Virus record (IMG/VR): IMGVR_UViG_3300009184_000230
Span: 1 to 22,876 of that record
Source of the DNA: a virus
Length of the DNA stretch: 22,876 bases
Direction: 5' to 3' (one strand)
Shown here piece by piece: positions 6,801 to 16,910 of the stretch (within the stretch, counting starts at the first letter, position 1; every line of letters starts with the position of its first letter). Below the pieces are notes generated by a model, which saw only the letters and a program-made list of their open reading frames with translations, did not search any database and was not told where the DNA came from. A program made the position numbers and the translations under genes.

Positions 6801-9800
6801 ATGGCTGATATCGAATCAAATATAAAAGTTAATATAGATACGTCAGATGCTCTGTCGCAACTAAAACTTTTACAACAGCAGATATCAGCCTTCCAACAGG
6901 CAATGAAAAATGCTGGAGCACAAAATGCTTCAGCCGCTGTTCAAATGCAGCAAAACTTGATGACATCCATCAATGCTACTGGCAAGTTTTCTGCAAATAT
7001 ACAAACAATTAAAACAAGTGCGGAATCTTTTACAGAGTCCCTCGAAAAGAACAAACTATCTATAGGTCAATACTTTAGGTATGCTGGTGGTGCATCTAAA
7101 ACTTTTGGAAAACTGTTCAAATCTGAATTTGAAACTATTCAGCAAGTAGCAGTAGACAGAGTAAAGACTATACAGACCCAGTATATTAAACTTGGTCGTG
7201 ATGCTTCTGGAGCAATGAAAGCAATTGCTGTTAGACCACTTGCTCTCGATATGGATAATTTGGGAACAAAAACCCAAATAGCGGCACAGAAACAGCAACT
7301 CTTTAACCAGTTGATGAAGCAAGGCTCTACACAACTTCTAAACTTTGGTAAGAACACTCAGTGGGCTGGTCGCCAACTTATGGTTGGTTTTACTATTCCA
7401 CTTACATTAATGGGTCAGGCAGCAGCCCAAGCCTATATGAAGATTGAAGCAGCATCTCTAAAGTTTAGGCGTGTTTATGGAGACATGAATACAACAACAG
7501 AAGAAACCAATAAAATGGTTAAATCTGTTCAAGCACTTGCAAATGAGTTTACAAAATATGGTATTGCTGTTGCAGATACCATGGACATGGCTGCTCAAGC
7601 AGCGGCTATGGGTAAAACAGGCACTGACCTTATGCAACAGGTTGCTCAGGCATCAAAACTTTCGGTACTTGGTCAAGTAGAGCAACAGCAAGCATTAGAA
7701 ACAACCATTAGCCTTACAAACGCTTTTGGTATATCTACAGATGAACTAGCAAAAAGCGTAGACTTCCTTAACGCAGTAGAAAACCAAACTGTTGTTAGCA
7801 TCGAAGACCTTACAATTGCTATTCCAAAAGCAGCCCCAGTAGTTAAACAACTTGGTGGAGATGTCGAAGACCTAACATTCTTCCTGACAGCAATGAAGGA
7901 AGGTGGCATTAACGCATCTGAAGGTGCTAACGCACTTAAGTCTGGTCTTGCATCTATGATTAATCCAACTAAAAAGGCTTCGGACTTTTTGGCACAATTT
8001 GGAGTCAACATTAAAGCAATTGTTGAGGGAAACAAGGGAGACATTAAGGGAACAGTTGTTGATTTTGCTAAGGCACTGGACACATTAGACCCACTAAATC
8101 GTGCTCGTGCAATTGAACAGATGTTTGGTAAATTCCAATTCTCTCGTCTATCTACACTATTCAAGAACGTAATTGATGAGGGTAGCCAAGCAGCCACGGT
8201 AGCAGGTCTTGCAAATCAAACAGCAGAAGAACTTGCAGTATTGTCAGAACGAGAAATGAGTAAAATCTCAGACTCTCCTATGTTTAAATTTCAAAAATCT
8301 ATTCAAGATATGCAAACCAAACTTGCTCCAGTTGGAGAAGCATTCCTAAAGGCTGTAACTCCAATTATTGAATTTGTGACAAAGATTTTAGATGGCTTCA
8401 ACAATCTTAGTGAAGGAACAAAATCTTTTGTTTCTATATTAGTTTTGGCTGTTGCTGGTATTGGTCCTGCATTGCTAATGACATTTGGTCTTATTGCTAA
8501 CGGTGTGGCAAACATTATGAAACTCTTTACTAATATGAAGGCTTTCATAAATAAAACTACAAAACCATCCGATGTTCTTGGAGAACAAACTTCTTACATG
8601 AACACAGAGCAGTTAAAGAGTGCTGCTATTGCTGCATCTCTAGACCAGGCTCACGCAAAACTTCGTCAAACATTCACTTCCGAGGCTGCTGCAGTTCAAC
8701 AACTGACAGACGCTTATAGAAATGCTGTACAGGCTCAACAGGCTTATTCTGGTATTCCAGGTATTCCAACAGGAAATCCAAATGCTACACCTAGAAAATA
8801 TGCTAACGGTGTATCTATGGTTCCAGGTCCTTCGGGTGCAGGTGACATTGTTCCAGCACTACTATCTCCAGGTGAAGCAGTTATTCCTGCAAGGTCTGCT
8901 AAAAAGTATGCTCCAGTAATTCGTGGCATGATTGCTGGAAACCTTCCAGGATTTGAGGATGGCACTCCAGGTGCAGGTATGCGTCAAAGCATGATTGGTC
9001 CAATGACCGAAAAACAAATTGAAGGTCTTGCAAGAACAGGAAAAACTCTTAAAGAGATTAGCGATGAAGTTTATGCAGGTCCTTATGGTCAAACTCCACC
9101 AACAAATTATGGCACACAAATCACTCCAAGTGCTGGACATTCTTTCCCTGCATTTGGTGTTGCTGGAGTATATGAAAAACCAGACGGAACAAAAGTATTC
9201 GTTAAGCCACAAATGGACTTAGTTTCTGCAATGGCAGAAATTAGAGGAACAACTATTGCTCGTGACGTACATGGACTTGTAGCACCAAAGCAATCGCTTC
9301 GTGTAATGATGGACCCAACAGACCCAGAAGACAAGAGAAAATTCTTAGTTCTTGAGTCAGCATTGGACGAGAGACTTGCTAATGTTCCAACAGAATTTAC
9401 TAAAGACCAATACTTTAAACAACTTGTTGCGTCTCTTCTTCGTGGAGATAAAGACCTTGGTGTTGGAAACCTTGGAGGAAACGTCCTTGCTGACGTTGGT
9501 CCTGCTGGGGTATTCCAAAGAGCATCTGGTAAACGTGCTCTTGGTAGCCAAATTAACTCTATGGAAGAACAAGCAATCATTAATCTTCTTGGCGTAAAGG
9601 GTGGTGCTAAGAGATTCTTTGCTGAGGCAACATCAGATATTGCTAAGAGTATGACCCCTGCTGAATATGATGCAGCAATCAAGGCAGAGATTCAGGCAGT
9701 TGCTCCAAGACTTCAGGCTACAATTGCTGGATTTGGAAATCTTAACCCAGAAGAAAAGGCAGCATACATGGCTATGCAGCAAAGACTTCAGGCAGGTATG

Positions 9801-12800
9801 GGGGTTGACTGGGCTAAGTATCAGGTCATGCATTCGAAAGTGCCTACAAAGAAACTTGCTGAAGGTGGATTTGTTGGCATTGAAAATAGTCAGTCATTTG
9901 CTCAAAGTTTGATGAGCATGTCTAGTGATGAGATAAAGAAACAACTTAATATCAATGACACTCACTTAGTTACTCCAATAGATTTAACCAAGAATCCACA
10001 AGTTCTTAAACAGATTACAGATATACTTCCAGGAGTAACTAAAGAAGAACTTCGTGGTTTTGAACCAGTATCTAATTTGACAGCCCAACTTCCAGCAAAC
10101 ATGAATCAGAAGATGAAGACTAGTGGTTATCCTTCATCAACATTTAGTTCAATTTGGAATGGTTTTGTTGGCAAACTATCGAAGAGTGCAACTATTGCTG
10201 GAATTGATTTGCCAAGTTCTCAAATAATTGAAGATGAATTGGGTACACAAATTGCTGCTGCTGGCGGAAATATAACTGATGGAACAATTAATGACATCAT
10301 TGGAAATGTTCTTGGAAAATCTTCAAAAGTAACTGACATAAATGAAAGTAAACAAAAACTATATAGTTTAGCACTTAAGGTTGCACAACTTAGAAGCAAA
10401 CCAAAACAATTAAGCCAATCAGGTAATGATTCAATTCATTCAATTGTTCTTAGAATGATAAGGGATGGCTCTGCACAATTTAATGATAACGGAACAAGTA
10501 TTGTTAGAACTATTGGACAAGGAAATGTTACAAGATTTGGAACCTGGGAATTTGAAGGTATTGGAACTGGCAAAGAAGAAGGAACAATAGAACAAAAAGA
10601 AATACGCAGAAGAGCACAAGAAGCAGCATATGGTTCTACTGGCTGGGCATCACTAAGAAATTGGAATGCCCCTATGCCAACAGTAAATCGAGAACTTGTT
10701 AAACCTAAAGACTGGGCGGAAGTAACTAATCCTGCAACCTGGAATAGAATGACTAAAGAACAGCAGAGACAATATCTTTCTACAATACAAGGAACTAAAC
10801 CAACAACTCTTGGATTTAGAAAGCAAGACTATGAACAAGGTTTTGGAGATAACAAGGGTCCTGCATCAGGATGGACATACGATTCTAGTAAACTAAAGGC
10901 TGGAATTAAATGGAGAAATTCCGAACAAGCCATGCAAATGGGATACAACGAAATGGCTGCAAATGGAATTATCCCATCAGCAGGACAAGCATTCTTTAAT
11001 AAGTTAGCCCTAGGTAAAGAACCTGTAAGAATGGCTGAGGGTGGCATTGTTCCAGGTGGAATGGGTAAGCCTAAAGCATCCGTATTTGACGTAGACGATA
11101 CACTGCTTGACCTAGCATCGTTCATGCCAGCACACCAAGAAAGAAATGCAAAACTACCTAAAGAACAAAGACTTAATTGGTGGGAAGAAGTAGCCAAAGA
11201 CCCTAAAGGTATTCCTGCTGCTATTCAAAGACTAAAAGATGCTCAGATGCGTGGTAATAAGATTCTTCTTATGACTGCAAGACCAAAGACTTATGATGCT
11301 GTTACATTGGATACCCTGCAAAAACTGGGTATTGATACTAAGGGTGTCAAACTAATTTCTAGAGAAAATAAAGATTATCGTAAACCAGAACAGATGAAGT
11401 ATGACAAAACTTCTAAGTATATGCAATGGTATGACATTGAAGAGTTCTATGACGATATGGCTAAGACTCGTGGTGCTGTAAGTCTTCTAGGTATTAATAC
11501 TATTAATCCTCTTAAACTTGCTAAGGGTGGTGTTGTTCCTGGATATGCTAAGGGTACTCCAAGAGTTTTAGATACTATCGAGCAAAAGTTCCCAGGAATG
11601 TTTACTCAACTTCCTAAATCAAGGATGATGCAGTATAGTGAAGGTGCAACTAAGCCAGAGGCAAATAAAAAAGTTTTCACATCTTCAAGATTAAAGAGTT
11701 TTAAGTTTGAAGATTGGAACAGAACATATGACTTAGACGAACTAGCACAAATCGCTACAATGATAACTCAGGGTGAGTTTAGTGGTATAGGAAAGTCTGT
11801 ATATAGTAAAAAAACTGGTAAATATAAGAGAATTGGTGTTCCTACCTTCGATGATTTGCTTGTAAATGGAAAACCTATTTTGCAAGAACTTCCAGGGTAT
11901 CAAAAATATTCTTTAGGATATGAAGGAGAAGAAGTATACGCTGGAATTGCTAGAAATAAAATAGCAATGCTACAGTCTCTTCAAGACTGGATTTATCAAG
12001 ATGACTGGGGTAAAGAAGCAAGTGAATTTACTGTAAATGGAATACCTGCAAAAACTTTCTTTAAAGGATTATCTTTAAACCAATACAGAGTTCCAGGACA
12101 AAAAACAAAATCAAAGCCATACTTTTTTGCTGACGGTGTGTTCTCAGTTCCAGGACCAAAGGGTGCTGGCGATGTAGTTCCTGCTATGCTATCTCCAGGT
12201 GAGGCTGTTATTCCTGCCAAGCAAGCAGCACAGCACCGTCCAATGATTCAGCAAATGATTGCTGGTAATCTTCCAGGATATATTAAAGGAAGTCCAGGGG
12301 TAGGAATAAATTCAGTATTCAGTTCTGAGGTAGCAATGGAATCTGGAAAGCCACTAAATGTTAACATTGTAAAAGATGAAACAGCAAAGTCAGATAAACC
12401 ATTAGAAATACTTCAACCAAATTCAAAAGTGACAATTCTAACTCGTGAGCAAATCGAAGAACAGATGTCTATTGAAGATGAGGTATATAGACAACTTTTG
12501 GAAAAAGAAAAAGAATTAAAATTAAAGCACGTTCTTACTGAAGAGGAAAGAAAGTTGCTAGAGTCAAATAAGCAAATTATGCTTAAAAAAGAAGAAGCGT
12601 TTAAACTTCAAAAGAATGTGACAGAAAAAGAAAAAAGAGGTTTCTTTACAAGAAATGCTACAACTGGAAAAGTTCAGGGTGCGATGTATGGTCTTTCTGC
12701 AGCAGCAGGTCTTGCATCAACTGTGCCAGGTGCTGTAGGGGAAAGTGCACAGCAGATGCTTCCAGTTATTGGTGCTGCTACCGCTGCAATGTCTGTTATT

Positions 12801-15800
12801 CCTGGCTATGCTGGTATGATTGTTGGAGCAGGTGCAGCATTGGTTACAGCCTACATGCAGGTACAAGACAAGTTAAATAAGATTAGAGATGAGGCATTGG
12901 CTCTAGGAACTGCTATGGGTTCATCTACAAAGTCTATTGATAAATTTGCGGAATTTGCTAAAACTGTTACAGGTAGCCAAGCAATGGATAAGCGTAGAGA
13001 AACCAGTGCAGGAAGTTTCTTTAATGTTGTTCAAGGTAAAACAACATTTGGTGAATCATACATGAAGAGCGATGCTGGAAAAGAATTAGTCAAATCTGTT
13101 GGTGCAGCAATTAAGGGTGGCGGTTTAGACCAAGCAAAGGCAATGATTGTAAATCAACTTGGTACTGCAATAGCCAGTGGTGCTTTGTCTCCTGCTCAGG
13201 CTAGAAGTATTGCTTCAAATCTAGGTGCTCAACTAGGAGATATGTCTTTAGGTATCGAAGTGGCAGGAAAAATAACTGACCTCGTAGGTCCAAAAGGTGA
13301 AGACTTAAAGAAAGAACCTTTAGAAATAAGAATGCGTCTTGTTGCTGAGTCTATGGAACAGTTTAAAAAACAGGCAGAAATTTCTAACGCTAATGTTAAT
13401 GATACTGCAAAGAATGCAGGAACATCTGGTGCAGGTATTGGTCTAGGTATGGGTGCTGGTGCAGCGGCTGGCGGTATAGCCCTAGGAGCAGCATCCTTAA
13501 TGGGTGGCGTTGCTTCATCTTCTGCAATAGTTGCAGGTCTTGCAACAGCAGGAAGTGCAGTGCCAGTTATTGGAACTATTATTGGAGCACTTGTAGGATT
13601 CTCAATTGCTGCAGTTCAACTACAAGGAGATATTGCAAAAAATGCTGGTTACCTACAAGCAAGTTTAGGAAGTGCTTTATCAGTTCAACAGCAAATGGTT
13701 GACTCACTTACAGTAGACTATGAAAAAAGAATACAAGCAGCAAAGGCTGCTGGAGATACAGCAGAAGCAACTAGACTACAAAATCAATACCTTGCAGACC
13801 AAGCAGAGTTGCTACAGTTTAATAAAGAACAAACTCAGGAAATGTATAGCATATTGGAGTCTCAAGGGACTGGACTTGGATTTATGCTTAACGCACAAAT
13901 TGCAAATCTCGATACAGCAAGAGAAGGATTAAAGAAAGCATTTGAAGGCAGTGGTCAGGAAGTACAGGCTAAACTTGCACAAGAACAAATAGATTCTATG
14001 GCTGGTTCTGCTACCCAAAAGACTATGCTTATGTCAGCAGTTGCTCAAAAGCAAATAGGATTAAATCAAATTGGCGTTGCAAAAACAGCATTCGGTGCAG
14101 ACCAAGCAGGAGCAGACACATTACAGACATTGATGGAAAATAGTCCAACAGAATTAAATAGAACTCTTGGGTTGGCAGGAAATATGGGAGCGGTAGAGCA
14201 AAAGAAGTTTGTTTTAGACATGAGTCTTAAAGACCCTATTGAAGCAAAGGTGATGAATGATGCTGTAGAACTGGCACAAAAAACAACTGGCGTGTTCTTT
14301 GGAGAAAAGAAAACAGCAGAAGCAATTATGAAATTTGCTGTAGAAAATCCAGAAAAAATGTTAGAGTTCCAGCAAAACGTAGCAGAACTAAAAGATGTTG
14401 ATGGAGCAAAATTTGATATTACGGTTGCACAAAAAATTCTTGGTCCAGACTTGGCAAAGGCTTTGGGAGAAAAGAGCGTAGGAGCATACTTTAAGAAATA
14501 CAACAAGCAAAACAAGGTTGTATTCCTATCCGAGTTCCAACAAGTAATGACAATGCTTCAAGAGGGTGACAAAGACATGATTGATTCATACAATGCATGG
14601 AATGCGTCAAACGGAATGAAAAAGACATATGCCGATTATGCTGCTTGGCAGTCCGATAGAACAGTTACTACTCAAGGAGTAGATAATACAAAGGCACCAG
14701 GAGAAGACGGTGGAACAGGAGAAAAGGCTGGACCACAGGCATCAATTCTTGACCAGTTTGTTCAAATGGCGAGAGAGACTTCTAACTTCCAGCAAAAACT
14801 AACTACAGGATGGGATGCATCTCTTGCTGCTTTAAAGAGGTATACAATTACTTCTATTAACTTGCTTGCTGGTTGGGCGGTACGTCTAAAGCAACAAGGT
14901 GTAAGTGCAAATATGATAGACGTATTTATGGGTGCTACAGAAGAAGAGCAAGATAAAATTATTAATAAAAGAACTGGAGCACTCCTACCAGGGGCACTAG
15001 ACTTACTTAGAAAACTTCAGATTATTAAAGATAAAAAAGAATTTGGATTGTCTTATGTTCTTGCAAGTCCAACAGAAAGACTAGCAAAAGATAATGGTCT
15101 ATATCAGGCAGGTCTTGATGTCATTGCTAATAAAGAAAAAAAGATTAATGAAAAATATGATAAACGTATTAAAGCACTTGACCAGATTGGTAAGATTCAA
15201 GAAAAGAATAACCAAAGACAGCAAGATACTTTAACTATTGCAGATGCTTTGTCTAAGGGTGATATTGCTGCAGCCGCTAGAGCAGCACTAACCGCTAAAC
15301 AGAATAGTCAAAGATTAGCATTGGAAGATGCAAAAGAGAGCACAGAACTTGCTCGTAAAACTGAACTTGAGGCTATTACAGTTAAGATTTTAGGAGAAAC
15401 ACAAACACGCTCAGACCTAGAGGCAATAATTGCAACAAATACTGAAAAAATTGCAGCAAATAAACTTGTAGAAATGAATCGTCAAATCACAATTGGTCGA
15501 AATGCTGTTATTGCTGCTGAACAAAGTGCTATTCTTTTAGCAAATTCAACACTTATTTCAAAACTTCCTGGAGCAAACGGTGGTGGCTCTAGTACTGGTA
15601 GTGGAAAAGGCAATGGTGGAAAAGGCAATGGTGGAAAAGGTGATGGTGGAAAAGGTGATGGTGGAAAAGGTGATAAGGGTGGAAATAATGCCAATGATAC
15701 CGATTCAAAACCTACTGGGGTAGTTGGAAATATTGCAAGTTCTGTACAGGGTAAAGCATTTACAGCGGCAATTAAAGGTGCTCAGGATGTTACTCCTGGT

Positions 15801-16910
15801 GCTTTAAAGGCTGCTCAAGATTATGCTACTGCTAAGAAAAATGCAGGGGCATCAATGAGCGATGCTGCTGCAGAAAAGAAATTTGGTGGAAAAAATACTC
15901 CAGAATTTAAAAAATGGAAAGCAAATCAAATAAAACTTGCTAAAGCATTAACAGCAGCACAGGATTATGGTCTTGTCGATAGTTATGGTAACGTTCTTAC
16001 AGCAGACCAAGTTACTAATGCAACTACTTATCAAAAAAATACAATGCTTTCTTCAAAAAGTGGTCAAGCAGATGCAGCAGAATCCTTAAAGGGCATCCCA
16101 GCAGAAATTGCTTCTAGAGCAAAATTGATTAAAAATTCAAATAAAGATTTTGCAGCAGACAAAACAAAACTTGATGAAATGAAGAAAACATTTGAAAAAG
16201 CAGGTGGTATATTGTATATGCTTCCAGGATACTATCAAACATGGTTAAATACCTCAGATGCTTTAAGACCTACAACTCCTTTTGGAAAACTTATTGCAAA
16301 AGGTGCTAAACCAGAAGAACTTATAAATCAAGCAACAAAAATGGCAACGAAGTTTGGTGAAATAGATAATTATAGAAAAGAACTTAGGACTGCTGGGTAC
16401 ACAGAGAGTATGCTTTTCCAGGCTAAACTATTTGATAGTACTGATGGTCGTGATGGACAAACTTTAAAACAAAGTTCTGATTTTGCATCTGGTCAAATGT
16501 TTAATCCACACAAACCCTATACAGGAACAAATATTGGATATGGTAAAAACCAAATACTTCCAGATGCAGAAAACATGCTTAGGTTTGCTAATCAATATTA
16601 TGCTATGGGTGGTATGGTTTATGCAAACAAAGGGCTTAAGGTTGCAGCAAGCAAGTATGCTCTTGGAACAGACACTATTCCAGCCATGCTAACTGCTGGA
16701 GAATTTGTTATGAGGAAATCAGCGGTAGATAGAATTGGCTCAAGAACACTAACCAAAATGAATGATGGAACATCTTCAGGAGATTCAGTGTATAATTATA
16801 GTATTACATTAAACGTCAATTCATCATCTGACTCTAACGACATTGCAGATGCAGTCCTTAGACAGATTAAGAGAATTGATTCACAAAGAATTAGGAGCAG
16901 TGCTATATAA
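6801..16910 (+). CDS. Giant tape measure protein with embedded enzyme-like modules
   Basis: 3,369 residues in one frame; weak RBS GGTG at 6790-6793. Tape measures set tail length and line the tube lumen. Seen in order: N-terminal coiled coil (1-120); TP901-type core (~146-500); hydrophobic segment (~540-577); linker copy A (668-726); insert of about 1,050 residues (727-1776) with four modules; linker copy B (1777-1835); charged coiled coil (~1865-1930); hydrophobic segments (~1961-2018 and ~2212-2275); long helical stretches; a GKGNG/GKGDG repeat (2935-2959); a C-terminal GG-V linker with IPAMLTAGEF (3268-3323); and a C-terminus with SITLNV and DAVLRQIKRIDSQRIR, as in actinophage tape measures. 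It is long for the family, which is usually about 700-2,000 residues. At roughly 1.5 angstrom per residue the whole would span about 500 nm; without the insert about 350 nm. I see no lysozyme or peptidase motif. Its stop overlaps the next start by one base. Confidence 0.93.
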   Translation: MADIESNIKVNIDTSDALSQLKLLQQQISAFQQAMKNAGAQNASAAVQMQQNLMTSINATGKFSANIQTIKTSAESFTESLEKNKLSIGQYFRYAGGASKTFGKLFKSEFETIQQVAVDRVKTIQTQYIKLGRDASGAMKAIAVRPLALDMDNLGTKTQIAAQKQQLFNQLMKQGSTQLLNFGKNTQWAGRQLMVGFTIPLTLMGQAAAQAYMKIEAASLKFRRVYGDMNTTTEETNKMVKSVQALANEFTKYGIAVADTMDMAAQAAAMGKTGTDLMQQVAQASKLSVLGQVEQQQALETTISLTNAFGISTDELAKSVDFLNAVENQTVVSIEDLTIAIPKAAPVVKQLGGDVEDLTFFLTAMKEGGINASEGANALKSGLASMINPTKKASDFLAQFGVNIKAIVEGNKGDIKGTVVDFAKALDTLDPLNRARAIEQMFGKFQFSRLSTLFKNVIDEGSQAATVAGLANQTAEELAVLSEREMSKISDSPMFKFQKSIQDMQTKLAPVGEAFLKAVTPIIEFVTKILDGFNNLSEGTKSFVSILVLAVAGIGPALLMTFGLIANGVANIMKLFTNMKAFINKTTKPSDVLGEQTSYMNTEQLKSAAIAASLDQAHAKLRQTFTSEAAAVQQLTDAYRNAVQAQQAYSGIPGIPTGNPNATPRKYANGVSMVPGPSGAGDIVPALLSPGEAVIPARSAKKYAPVIRGMIAGNLPGFEDGTPGAGMRQSMIGPMTEKQIEGLARTGKTLKEISDEVYAGPYGQTPPTNYGTQITPSAGHSFPAFGVAGVYEKPDGTKVFVKPQMDLVSAMAEIRGTTIARDVHGLVAPKQSLRVMMDPTDPEDKRKFLVLESALDERLANVPTEFTKDQYFKQLVASLLRGDKDLGVGNLGGNVLADVGPAGVFQRASGKRALGSQINSMEEQAIINLLGVKGGAKRFFAEATSDIAKSMTPAEYDAAIKAEIQAVAPRLQATIAGFGNLNPEEKAAYMAMQQRLQAGMGVDWAKYQVMHSKVPTKKLAEGGFVGIENSQSFAQSLMSMSSDEIKKQLNINDTHLVTPIDLTKNPQVLKQITDILPGVTKEELRGFEPVSNLTAQLPANMNQKMKTSGYPSSTFSSIWNGFVGKLSKSATIAGIDLPSSQIIEDELGTQIAAAGGNITDGTINDIIGNVLGKSSKVTDINESKQKLYSLALKVAQLRSKPKQLSQSGNDSIHSIVLRMIRDGSAQFNDNGTSIVRTIGQGNVTRFGTWEFEGIGTGKEEGTIEQKEIRRRAQEAAYGSTGWASLRNWNAPMPTVNRELVKPKDWAEVTNPATWNRMTKEQQRQYLSTIQGTKPTTLGFRKQDYEQGFGDNKGPASGWTYDSSKLKAGIKWRNSEQAMQMGYNEMAANGIIPSAGQAFFNKLALGKEPVRMAEGGIVPGGMGKPKASVFDVDDTLLDLASFMPAHQERNAKLPKEQRLNWWEEVAKDPKGIPAAIQRLKDAQMRGNKILLMTARPKTYDAVTLDTLQKLGIDTKGVKLISRENKDYRKPEQMKYDKTSKYMQWYDIEEFYDDMAKTRGAVSLLGINTINPLKLAKGGVVPGYAKGTPRVLDTIEQKFPGMFTQLPKSRMMQYSEGATKPEANKKVFTSSRLKSFKFEDWNRTYDLDELAQIATMITQGEFSGIGKSVYSKKTGKYKRIGVPTFDDLLVNGKPILQELPGYQKYSLGYEGEEVYAGIARNKIAMLQSLQDWIYQDDWGKEASEFTVNGIPAKTFFKGLSLNQYRVPGQKTKSKPYFFADGVFSVPGPKGAGDVVPAMLSPGEAVIPAKQAAQHRPMIQQMIAGNLPGYIKGSPGVGINSVFSSEVAMESGKPLNVNIVKDETAKSDKPLEILQPNSKVTILTREQIEEQMSIEDEVYRQLLEKEKELKLKHVLTEEERKLLESNKQIMLKKEEAFKLQKNVTEKEKRGFFTRNATTGKVQGAMYGLSAAAGLASTVPGAVGESAQQMLPVIGAATAAMSVIPGYAGMIVGAGAALVTAYMQVQDKLNKIRDEALALGTAMGSSTKSIDKFAEFAKTVTGSQAMDKRRETSAGSFFNVVQGKTTFGESYMKSDAGKELVKSVGAAIKGGGLDQAKAMIVNQLGTAIASGALSPAQARSIASNLGAQLGDMSLGIEVAGKITDLVGPKGEDLKKEPLEIRMRLVAESMEQFKKQAEISNANVNDTAKNAGTSGAGIGLGMGAGAAAGGIALGAASLMGGVASSSAIVAGLATAGSAVPVIGTIIGALVGFSIAAVQLQGDIAKNAGYLQASLGSALSVQQQMVDSLTVDYEKRIQAAKAAGDTAEATRLQNQYLADQAELLQFNKEQTQEMYSILESQGTGLGFMLNAQIANLDTAREGLKKAFEGSGQEVQAKLAQEQIDSMAGSATQKTMLMSAVAQKQIGLNQIGVAKTAFGADQAGADTLQTLMENSPTELNRTLGLAGNMGAVEQKKFVLDMSLKDPIEAKVMNDAVELAQKTTGVFFGEKKTAEAIMKFAVENPEKMLEFQQNVAELKDVDGAKFDITVAQKILGPDLAKALGEKSVGAYFKKYNKQNKVVFLSEFQQVMTMLQEGDKDMIDSYNAWNASNGMKKTYADYAAWQSDRTVTTQGVDNTKAPGEDGGTGEKAGPQASILDQFVQMARETSNFQQKLTTGWDASLAALKRYTITSINLLAGWAVRLKQQGVSANMIDVFMGATEEEQDKIINKRTGALLPGALDLLRKLQIIKDKKEFGLSYVLASPTERLAKDNGLYQAGLDVIANKEKKINEKYDKRIKALDQIGKIQEKNNQRQQDTLTIADALSKGDIAAAARAALTAKQNSQRLALEDAKESTELARKTELEAITVKILGETQTRSDLEAIIATNTEKIAANKLVEMNRQITIGRNAVIAAEQSAILLANSTLISKLPGANGGGSSTGSGKGNGGKGNGGKGDGGKGDGGKGDKGGNNANDTDSKPTGVVGNIASSVQGKAFTAAIKGAQDVTPGALKAAQDYATAKKNAGASMSDAAAEKKFGGKNTPEFKKWKANQIKLAKALTAAQDYGLVDSYGNVLTADQVTNATTYQKNTMLSSKSGQADAAESLKGIPAEIASRAKLIKNSNKDFAADKTKLDEMKKTFEKAGGILYMLPGYYQTWLNTSDALRPTTPFGKLIAKGAKPEELINQATKMATKFGEIDNYRKELRTAGYTESMLFQAKLFDSTDGRDGQTLKQSSDFASGQMFNPHKPYTGTNIGYGKNQILPDAENMLRFANQYYAMGGMVYANKGLKVAASKYALGTDTIPAMLTAGEFVMRKSAVDRIGSRTLTKMNDGTSSGDSVYNYSITLNVNSSSDSNDIADAVLRQIKRIDSQRIRSSAI
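7236..8300 (+). other. TP901-type tape measure core domain
   Basis: Residues ~146-500 carry the recognisable core of phage minor-tail/tape measure proteins: WAGRQLMVGFTIPLTLMGQA, AAQAAAMGKTGTDLMQQVAQ, TNAFGISTDELAKSVDFLNA, then FFLTAMKEGGINASEGANAL and RARAIEQMFGKFQFSRLSTL. This identifies the gene product regardless of the unusual insert downstream. Confidence 0.85.
8802..8978 (+). repeat. Linker repeat copy A in the tape measure
   Basis: Residues 668-726: ANGVSMVPGPSGAGDIVPAL, then LSPGEAVIPA, later IAGNLPG and TPGAG. Aligns without gaps to residues 1777-1835, 39 of 59 positions identical by my count. The G-GD-VPA-LSPGEAVIPA core is a known tape measure linker type (usually seen once, near the C-terminus). 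Confidence 0.85.
9123..9836 (+). other. Kinase-like domain embedded in the tape measure (module 1)
   Basis: Residues ~775-1012. A beta-hairpin with GVYEKPDGTKVFVKP places a lysine (K802) on a strand, followed 11 residues on by E813 in a helix (SAMAEIRGTTIARDV). A hinge-like FLVLESALDE follows (848-857), then a loop with R-GDKDLGVGNLGGNVLAD (D883, D885, N890, N894) and D898. Lys, Glu, Asp, Asn and Asp in this order and spacing match the ATP-binding and catalytic residues of kinase-fold enzymes of the PI3/4-kinase or HipA-like type, where the catalytic loop reads GD-x-x-x-x-x-N. Inference only; substrate unknown. The glycine-rich loop is weak, so it might be inactive or a different fold. Confidence 0.4.
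9879..11024 (+). other. Unrecognised module 2 in the tape measure insert
   Basis: Residues ~1027-1408, bounded by the short linkers AEGGFVG (1020-1026) and AEGGIVPGG (1412-1420). The first half is helical with many Asn, Ile and Ser; the second half is rich in Trp, Arg, Gln and Gly (GWASLRNWN, DWAEVTNPATWNRM, GWTYDSSKLKAGIKWRN). It does not resemble tape-measure sequence and I recognise no family. Codons are more AT-rich than in module 1. Confidence 0.5.
11073..11510 (+). other. HAD-superfamily phosphatase-like domain embedded in the tape measure (module 3)
   Basis: Residues ~1425-1570. Motif I is FDVDDTLLD with nucleophile D1430 and acid/base D1432. Motif II is KILLMTARP with T1492. Lysines K1533, K1536 and K1539 are candidates for motif III, and motif IV is EEFYDD with D1551 and D1552. 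All residues needed for HAD chemistry are in the right order within about 145 residues. A helix carrying IPAAIQRLKDAQMRGNKI precedes motif II, as in the polynucleotide 3'-phosphatase of T4 Pnkp and acid-phosphatase-like HADs. Expected activity is phosphomonoester hydrolysis with Mg2+; the substrate is unknown. Bounded by GG-V linkers on both sides. Confidence 0.8.
11562..12128 (+). other. Unrecognised module 4 in the tape measure insert
   Basis: Residues ~1588-1776, between linker AKGGVVPGYAKGTP (1574-1587) and linker copy B. Mixed alpha/beta, rich in Tyr, Lys, Phe and Trp (LKSFKFEDWNRTYDLDELAQ; LPGYQKYSLGYEGEEVYAG; SLQDWIYQDDWGKEASEF). No family recognised and no catalytic motif seen. Confidence 0.5.
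12129..12305 (+). repeat. Linker repeat copy B in the tape measure
   Basis: Residues 1777-1835: ADGVFSVPGPKGAGDVVPAM, then LSPGEAVIPA, IAGNLPG and SPGVG. Second copy of the 59-residue linker at 668-726. It closes the roughly 1,050-residue insert, after which coiled-coil and hydrophobic tape-measure-like sequence resumes. Confidence 0.85.
12681..12854 (+). other. Hydrophobic segment in the tape measure
   Basis: Residues ~1961-2018 are almost free of charges and rich in Ala, Gly, Val, Ile and Met (GLSAAAGLASTVPGA; GYAGMIVGAGAALVTAYM). Possible membrane-inserting hairpin used during DNA ejection, as known for other tape measures. Confidence 0.55.
13440..13620 (+). other. Second Gly/Ala-rich hydrophobic segment in the tape measure
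   Basis: Residues ~2214-2274: GLGMGAGAAAGGIALGAASL, then VAGLATAGSAVPVIGTIIGA and LVGFSIAAV. Long enough for two membrane spans. Confidence 0.55.
15603..15677 (+). repeat. 15-bp in-frame tandem repeat, five copies
   Basis: Units GGAAAAGGCAATGGT (two copies), GGAAAAGGTGATGGT (two copies) and a final variant ending GATAAG encode GKGNG, GKGNG, GKGDG, GKGDG, GKGDK (residues 2935-2959). It lies in a Gly/Ser/Asn-rich hinge between helical regions and is likely a flexible, slippage-prone spacer. Confidence 0.95.
16602..16769 (+). other. C-terminal tape measure linker related to the internal repeats
   Basis: Residues 3268-3323: AMGGMVYANKG, GTDTIPAMLTAGEFVMRKSA, then RIGSRTLTKMNDG. This is the usual C-terminal tape measure motif and a distant relative of linker copies A and B (D-x-x-PA-L-x-x-GE). 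Confidence 0.75.

Follow-up and report, generated by a model that had tools for sequence, protein, structure and literature searches.

What is a kinase-like module doing in the middle of a phage tail tape measure protein (TMP)? Enzymes in TMPs are known mainly as cell-wall hydrolases. The question is raised by the window studied here, i.e. the whole stretch of 22,876 nucleotides from an uncultured virus, in which an earlier note, made from the letters of the sequence, had read positions 9123-9836 (aa 775-1012 of the TMP) as a kinase-like module of PI3/4-kinase- or HipA-like fold, lying beside a phosphatase-like module in the same protein.

The largest open reading frame of the window (6801-16910, plus strand) encodes 3369 aa and is, as judged from its sequence, a tail tape measure protein. 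It matches the TMP family profiles PHROG 10030 (E = 1.3e-99) and PF10145 (E = 7e-28), and its N-terminal part is nearest to the TMPs of Streptomyces phages (29-31% identity). The following parts of this protein are considered below:

6801..16910, plus strand: giant tail tape measure protein, 3369 aa
8826..8951, plus strand: linker A (aa ~676-717, VPGPxGAGDxVPAxLSPGEAVIPA...NLPGF), from a motif scan, directly upstream of the kinase-like cassette
9078..9836, plus strand: predicted kinase-fold domain (aa 760-1012), supported by the AlphaFold2 model, VIA-align and a conserved island in the TMP alignment
9837..11039, plus strand: variable module (aa 1013-1413)
11046..11525, plus strand: HAD phosphatase-like module (aa 1416-1575) with DxDxT, T, K/R and DD intact
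12153..12278, plus strand: linker B (aa ~1785-1826), second linker copy from the motif scan, at the end of the cargo block

The kinase-fold domain is positioned in the hypervariable cargo region of the TMP. Repeats of a VPGP..GDxVPAxLSPGEAVIPA linker (window ~8826-8951 and ~12153-12278; linker B is 62% identical to linker A) flank this variable cargo block, and a related linker motif is found close to the TMP C-terminus (window ~16680-16770). Linker A is kept in relatives both with and without the kinase-like cassette. A further segment at 11547-12110 of the window (aa 1583-1770) matches no family; whereas the window TMP has it once, the TMPs of the related loci L005 and L007 contain three copies (82-88% identical) and two copies, respectively, which suggests cargo duplication.

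An AlphaFold2 model of aa 760-1012, computed from an alignment of 48 sequences, reached a pLDDT of 91.6 and a pTM of 0.90 and predicts a separate domain with a two-lobed kinase fold. The domain starts at about aa 760 (9078), earlier than the boundary of 9123 in the earlier note. When the model was compared with known structures by VIA-align 2, kinase-fold chains accounted for all 50 among the matches listed, the best being CotH (5jda; Z 12.2, 217 aa, 3.9 A), followed by CtkA (11.1), PI4KII-alpha (10.6), LepB (10.0), FAM20C (9.5), HipT (9.2), VPS34 (9.1) and HipA (8.9). As rows up to about one Z unit apart were counted as tied, the domain is not assignable to CotH, CtkA/HipA, PI4K or FAM20, and the lead of CotH over CtkA, only about 1, is not discriminating. 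Foldseek likewise placed CtkA at the top of its PDB matches (E = 7.8e-3, probability 0.97); with an E-value of only this size, the link to kinases rests on the structural alignment of the predicted model together with the motif. In a viral library, Foldseek placed giant phage proteins first (best E 6.7e-5). The adjoining module (aa 1013-1413), treated identically as an internal control, found its best PDB match at Z 2.6. The kinase-like module reported earlier is thus borne out by the predicted structure, also in the comparison with HipA, PI4K and FAM20 folds that the note had proposed. Its narrower assignment to a PI3/4-kinase- or HipA-like protein was right as to fold class, but CotH, CtkA and PI4KII score slightly above HipA, and no placement was obtained by sequence.

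The putative active site consists of the following elements, whose positions in the model agree with their proposed roles:

9204..9206, plus strand: K802, putative ATP-binding lysine on strand 3 (VFVKP)
9237..9239, plus strand: E813, putative helix C glutamate
9342..9356, plus strand: FLVLE (aa 848-852), putative hinge strand
9447..9470, plus strand: putative catalytic loop DKDLGVGN with D883, D885 and N890
9492..9500, plus strand: D898-V-G900, putative DFG-like metal site

All residues named previously (K802, E813, FLVLE 848-852, D883, D885, N890, N894 and D898) stand where they had been placed. In 119 unique relatives, K802, D883, D885, N890 and D898 are invariant (119/119 each), while E813 (118/119) and E852 (116/119) are nearly so; G900 is conserved in 61 of 61 sequences. 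From the catalytic set of the earlier note only N894, kept in 71 of the 119 relatives (60%), had to be rejected as a catalytic residue. In the model, of which secondary structure and sequence alone were used to judge active-site geometry, K802 is part of a strand, E813 of the next helix and FLVLE of the hinge strand, whereas D883, D885, N890 and D898 are found in loops; helices 162-253 of the model come after the catalytic loop. The step from D885 to N890 (+5) fits that in catalytic loops of kinases, DKD stands where kinases have HRD, and D898-V-G resembles DFG. The site also departs from the familiar pattern, in that the distance between N890 and D898 is below that of PKA-like kinases and the catalytic loop reads DKD, not HRD.

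The conservation of these residues stands out from that of the domain, in which 22 of 254 alignment columns are invariant and columns average 53% identity. When seven columns were drawn at random 100,000 times, no set matched the active-site conservation in the 119 unique sequences, nor did any of 100,000 sets drawn from K/E/D/N columns, and synonymous codon changes are present at the invariant sites. Moreover, when aa 600-2000 of 34 TMPs were aligned, the kinase-fold domain contained nearly all of the invariant columns, a clustering that points to selection on domain function. The putative strand-3 lysine, helix C glutamate, catalytic aspartate, asparagine and metal-binding aspartate are therefore all present and conserved, and both model and alignment indicate that the domain is likely an active phosphotransferase. 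Neither a non-kinase fold nor an unconserved K/E/D/N/D set, the two outcomes that the earlier note had named as speaking against its claim, was seen.

Searches by sequence gave no connection to named kinases. No Pfam family matched the domain, with PI3/PI4-kinase families absent from the Pfam matches at E <= 10, PHROGs, NCBIfam and PADLOC returned no family match, and phmmer and hmmsearch against PDB sequences linked it to no kinase family. The CotH model PF08757, for which control genomes worked, matched neither the window nor four related records at E <= 10, PF07804 (HipA_C) matched none of these records either, and hhalign of the domain with E. coli HipA yielded a probability of 0.3%. The best PDB profile matches, designed helical proteins aligned over the C-terminal helices, were judged spurious. 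The open-access literature searched contained no description of a TMP with a kinase fold. By its sequence and predicted model, the domain is thus a new family within the known kinase-like superfamily, in an unusual carrier.

Among known systems, the CotH spore-coat protein kinase (PF08757; 5jda, 5jd9) is the best structural match, but identity is 8%, the Pfam model does not match and the carrier here is a phage tail protein. CtkA and HipA/HipT (PF07804; 3akl, 8ezr, 3tpb) share the kinase fold, although neither PF07804 nor, for E. coli HipA, a profile comparison links them to the domain; the same fold is present in PI4KII, the PI3K VPS34 and FAM20C, at 10-13% identity and without a family-model match. 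Polyvalent proteins resemble the present case in that a kinase-superfamily domain belongs to a large protein of several domains, for which injection together with the DNA has been proposed (PMC5512222). Their kinases, which occur in (pro)phages of Verrucomicrobia-Chlamydia and Bacteroidetes, have lost the C-terminal subdomain and possess an insert between His and Asp (PMC5512222), whereas here the predicted helices after the catalytic loop speak against such a loss, and the carrier is a TMP. The mt3 motif of TM4 is likewise a dispensable enzymatic domain in an actinophage TMP (PMC1796659), but a peptidoglycan hydrolase instead of a kinase fold.

The distribution of the domain was studied in IMG/VR with the window sequence (22 loci), with a 19-sequence profile (212 confirmed stretches, of which the best 80 were taken) and with a divergent profile (263 confirmed stretches, best 80 taken). 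Every one of 153 frame-checked loci contained one copy of the domain, complete frames (n = 112) ranged from 1686 to 4004 aa, and the domain was seen, among the IMG/VR loci checked, only within giant TMPs of uncultured phages; no relatives were found among 50,697 phage records and 84,980 bacterial and archaeal genomes. Kinase-bearing TMP frames of 1790 aa (L056/L153) and 1686 aa (L128), compared with a median of 2961, are possibly split genes or assembly errors. A WhiB gene was found on 9 of 12 related contigs, which together with the similarity of the N-terminus to Streptomyces phage TMPs makes an actinobacterial host likely, so that the carrier phages would probably infect Actinobacteria. Their freshwater origin is a guess of ours.

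To what extent the domain is a fixed part of these proteins can be seen from 80 TMPs collected by their N-terminus alone, a sample that leans to close relatives of the window TMP and in which 73 were long enough to judge. The domain was present in 21 of the 73, each time with at least 285 bits, and the remaining TMPs gave no signal. Complete TMPs with the domain have a median length of 3084 aa versus 2677 aa without it (P = 0.001, kinship ignored). Comparison of L241 with L244 is instructive, as the two share 86% identity over aa 1-784 and align again from 1064 versus 760, leaving an insert of 279 aa; inserts of 269-308 aa likewise distinguish L212 and L214 from L244, L037 from L188, and L034 from L217. 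Across such insert-versus-empty pairs the insert measures about 270-310 aa, and it occupies two different places in the TMP. The kinase-fold domain is an optional cassette with clean presence and absence. A Pfam scan detected no enzyme in the cargo of 36 TMPs without it. While domain gain or loss could not be confirmed for the TMP class in a recent survey of mosaicism among phage proteins (PMC10684548), the insert-versus-empty pairs represent clear domain gain or loss in TMPs.

Downstream of the cassette, the variable module (pLDDT 80.8, pTM 0.74) is without a family and has no PDB match above Z 2.6. An alignment of 16 sequences of this module shows no variation at columns with H, N, T, NQ, K, D and R, and the module is possibly another enzyme. 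The HAD module beyond it matches PF03767 (E = 1.7e-15) and PHROG 415, and its motifs do not vary among 12 sequences. Its nearest named relatives are acid phosphatases, 5'-nucleotidases and PNKP phosphatases; NCBIfam acid phosphatase or nucleotidase models match it below cutoff. The earlier note had considered that kinase and phosphatase might form an opposing pair on one substrate. Indeed, HAD always has the kinase for company: the kinase module is present on the contigs of all 17 HAD loci found and in all four HAD-bearing TMPs of the N-terminus-based sample, and a HAD module without it occurred in none of the loci found. The reverse does not hold, since most kinase-bearing TMPs lack HAD; an obligate pair was rejected on this ground, and a dedicated opposing pair is unlikely. 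That they phosphorylate and dephosphorylate a common substrate is further disfavoured by the variable module between them and by the likeness of HAD to the phosphatases named above and not to protein phosphatases, and we consider it improbable. It is more likely that kinase and HAD are independent cargo modules.

We regard it as fairly probable that the domain is optional TMP cargo, a phosphate-transferring enzyme that is delivered at DNA injection and acts early in infection. The domain would bind ATP-Mg and transfer phosphate; it would travel in the tail with the TMP, exit with it as DNA injection starts, fold inside or at the host cell, and modify a protein of host or phage at an early stage, with other modules such as HAD acting as separate optional cargo. 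It speaks against this scheme that a folded kinase would hardly fit the lumen of the tail tube; the domain would therefore need to be extended or located near the tip. Precedents exist for parts of this scheme: TM4 mt3 is one for a dispensable enzyme within a TMP (PMC1796659), lambda gpH was labelled during injection beside a host protein of the inner membrane (PMC13190303), and for polyvalent proteins the kinase domains themselves are thought to enter with the DNA (PMC5512222).

Alternatively, the kinase could be directed at the virion, phosphorylating tail or virion proteins during assembly or maturation in the manner of CotH and playing no role in the new host. CotH, which phosphorylates structural spore-coat proteins, is the closest structural match among those listed, and the producing cell contains the TMP for as long as virions are assembled. 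Yet the domain is optional among TMPs with N-termini 75-82% identical to that of the window, which argues that assembly is independent of it, and it lies within the hypervariable cargo region; we therefore hold this explanation, the foremost of the alternatives, to be unlikely. Next in descending order, and somewhat less credible, is a kinase fold with another chemistry, such as AMPylation (SelO-like), glutamylation (SidJ-like) or phosphorylation of small molecules, lipids or nucleotides. The DKD of the catalytic loop is unusual, the lipid kinase PI4KII scores near the protein kinases, and kinase-fold enzymes with other activities are known, e.g. SidJ (compare PMC6858067); against this, strand-3 lysine, helix C glutamate, D+5 N and DFG-like aspartate occur in canonical order and are conserved. 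The antagonistic pair discussed above ranks third. Last comes the possibility that the domain lengthens the tail as a structural spacer or pseudoenzyme, which would agree with the greater length of TMPs that possess the domain and with TM4, whose tail became about 20 nm shorter when the dispensable enzymatic motif mt3 was deleted (PMC1796659); a spacer, however, needs no invariant catalytic set in a domain of such modest overall identity, and we give this explanation hardly any credence.

Returning to the domain as injected cargo, a bolder form of this proposal, which we put forward tentatively and with less confidence than the proposal itself, is that the TMP serves as a modular delivery vehicle in a widespread family of uncultured phages, and that a new family of atypical kinases, present or absent as a cassette, precedes the genome into the host with the TMP, phosphorylating host machinery or membrane-associated defence at injection. 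The conserved active-site residues make the idea directly testable. If it is true, a kinase in a TMP would unite TMP enzymes with the injected kinase domains proposed for other large phage proteins, and a conserved kinase-fold family in TMPs would make the ruler of the tail a carrier of host-modifying enzymes.
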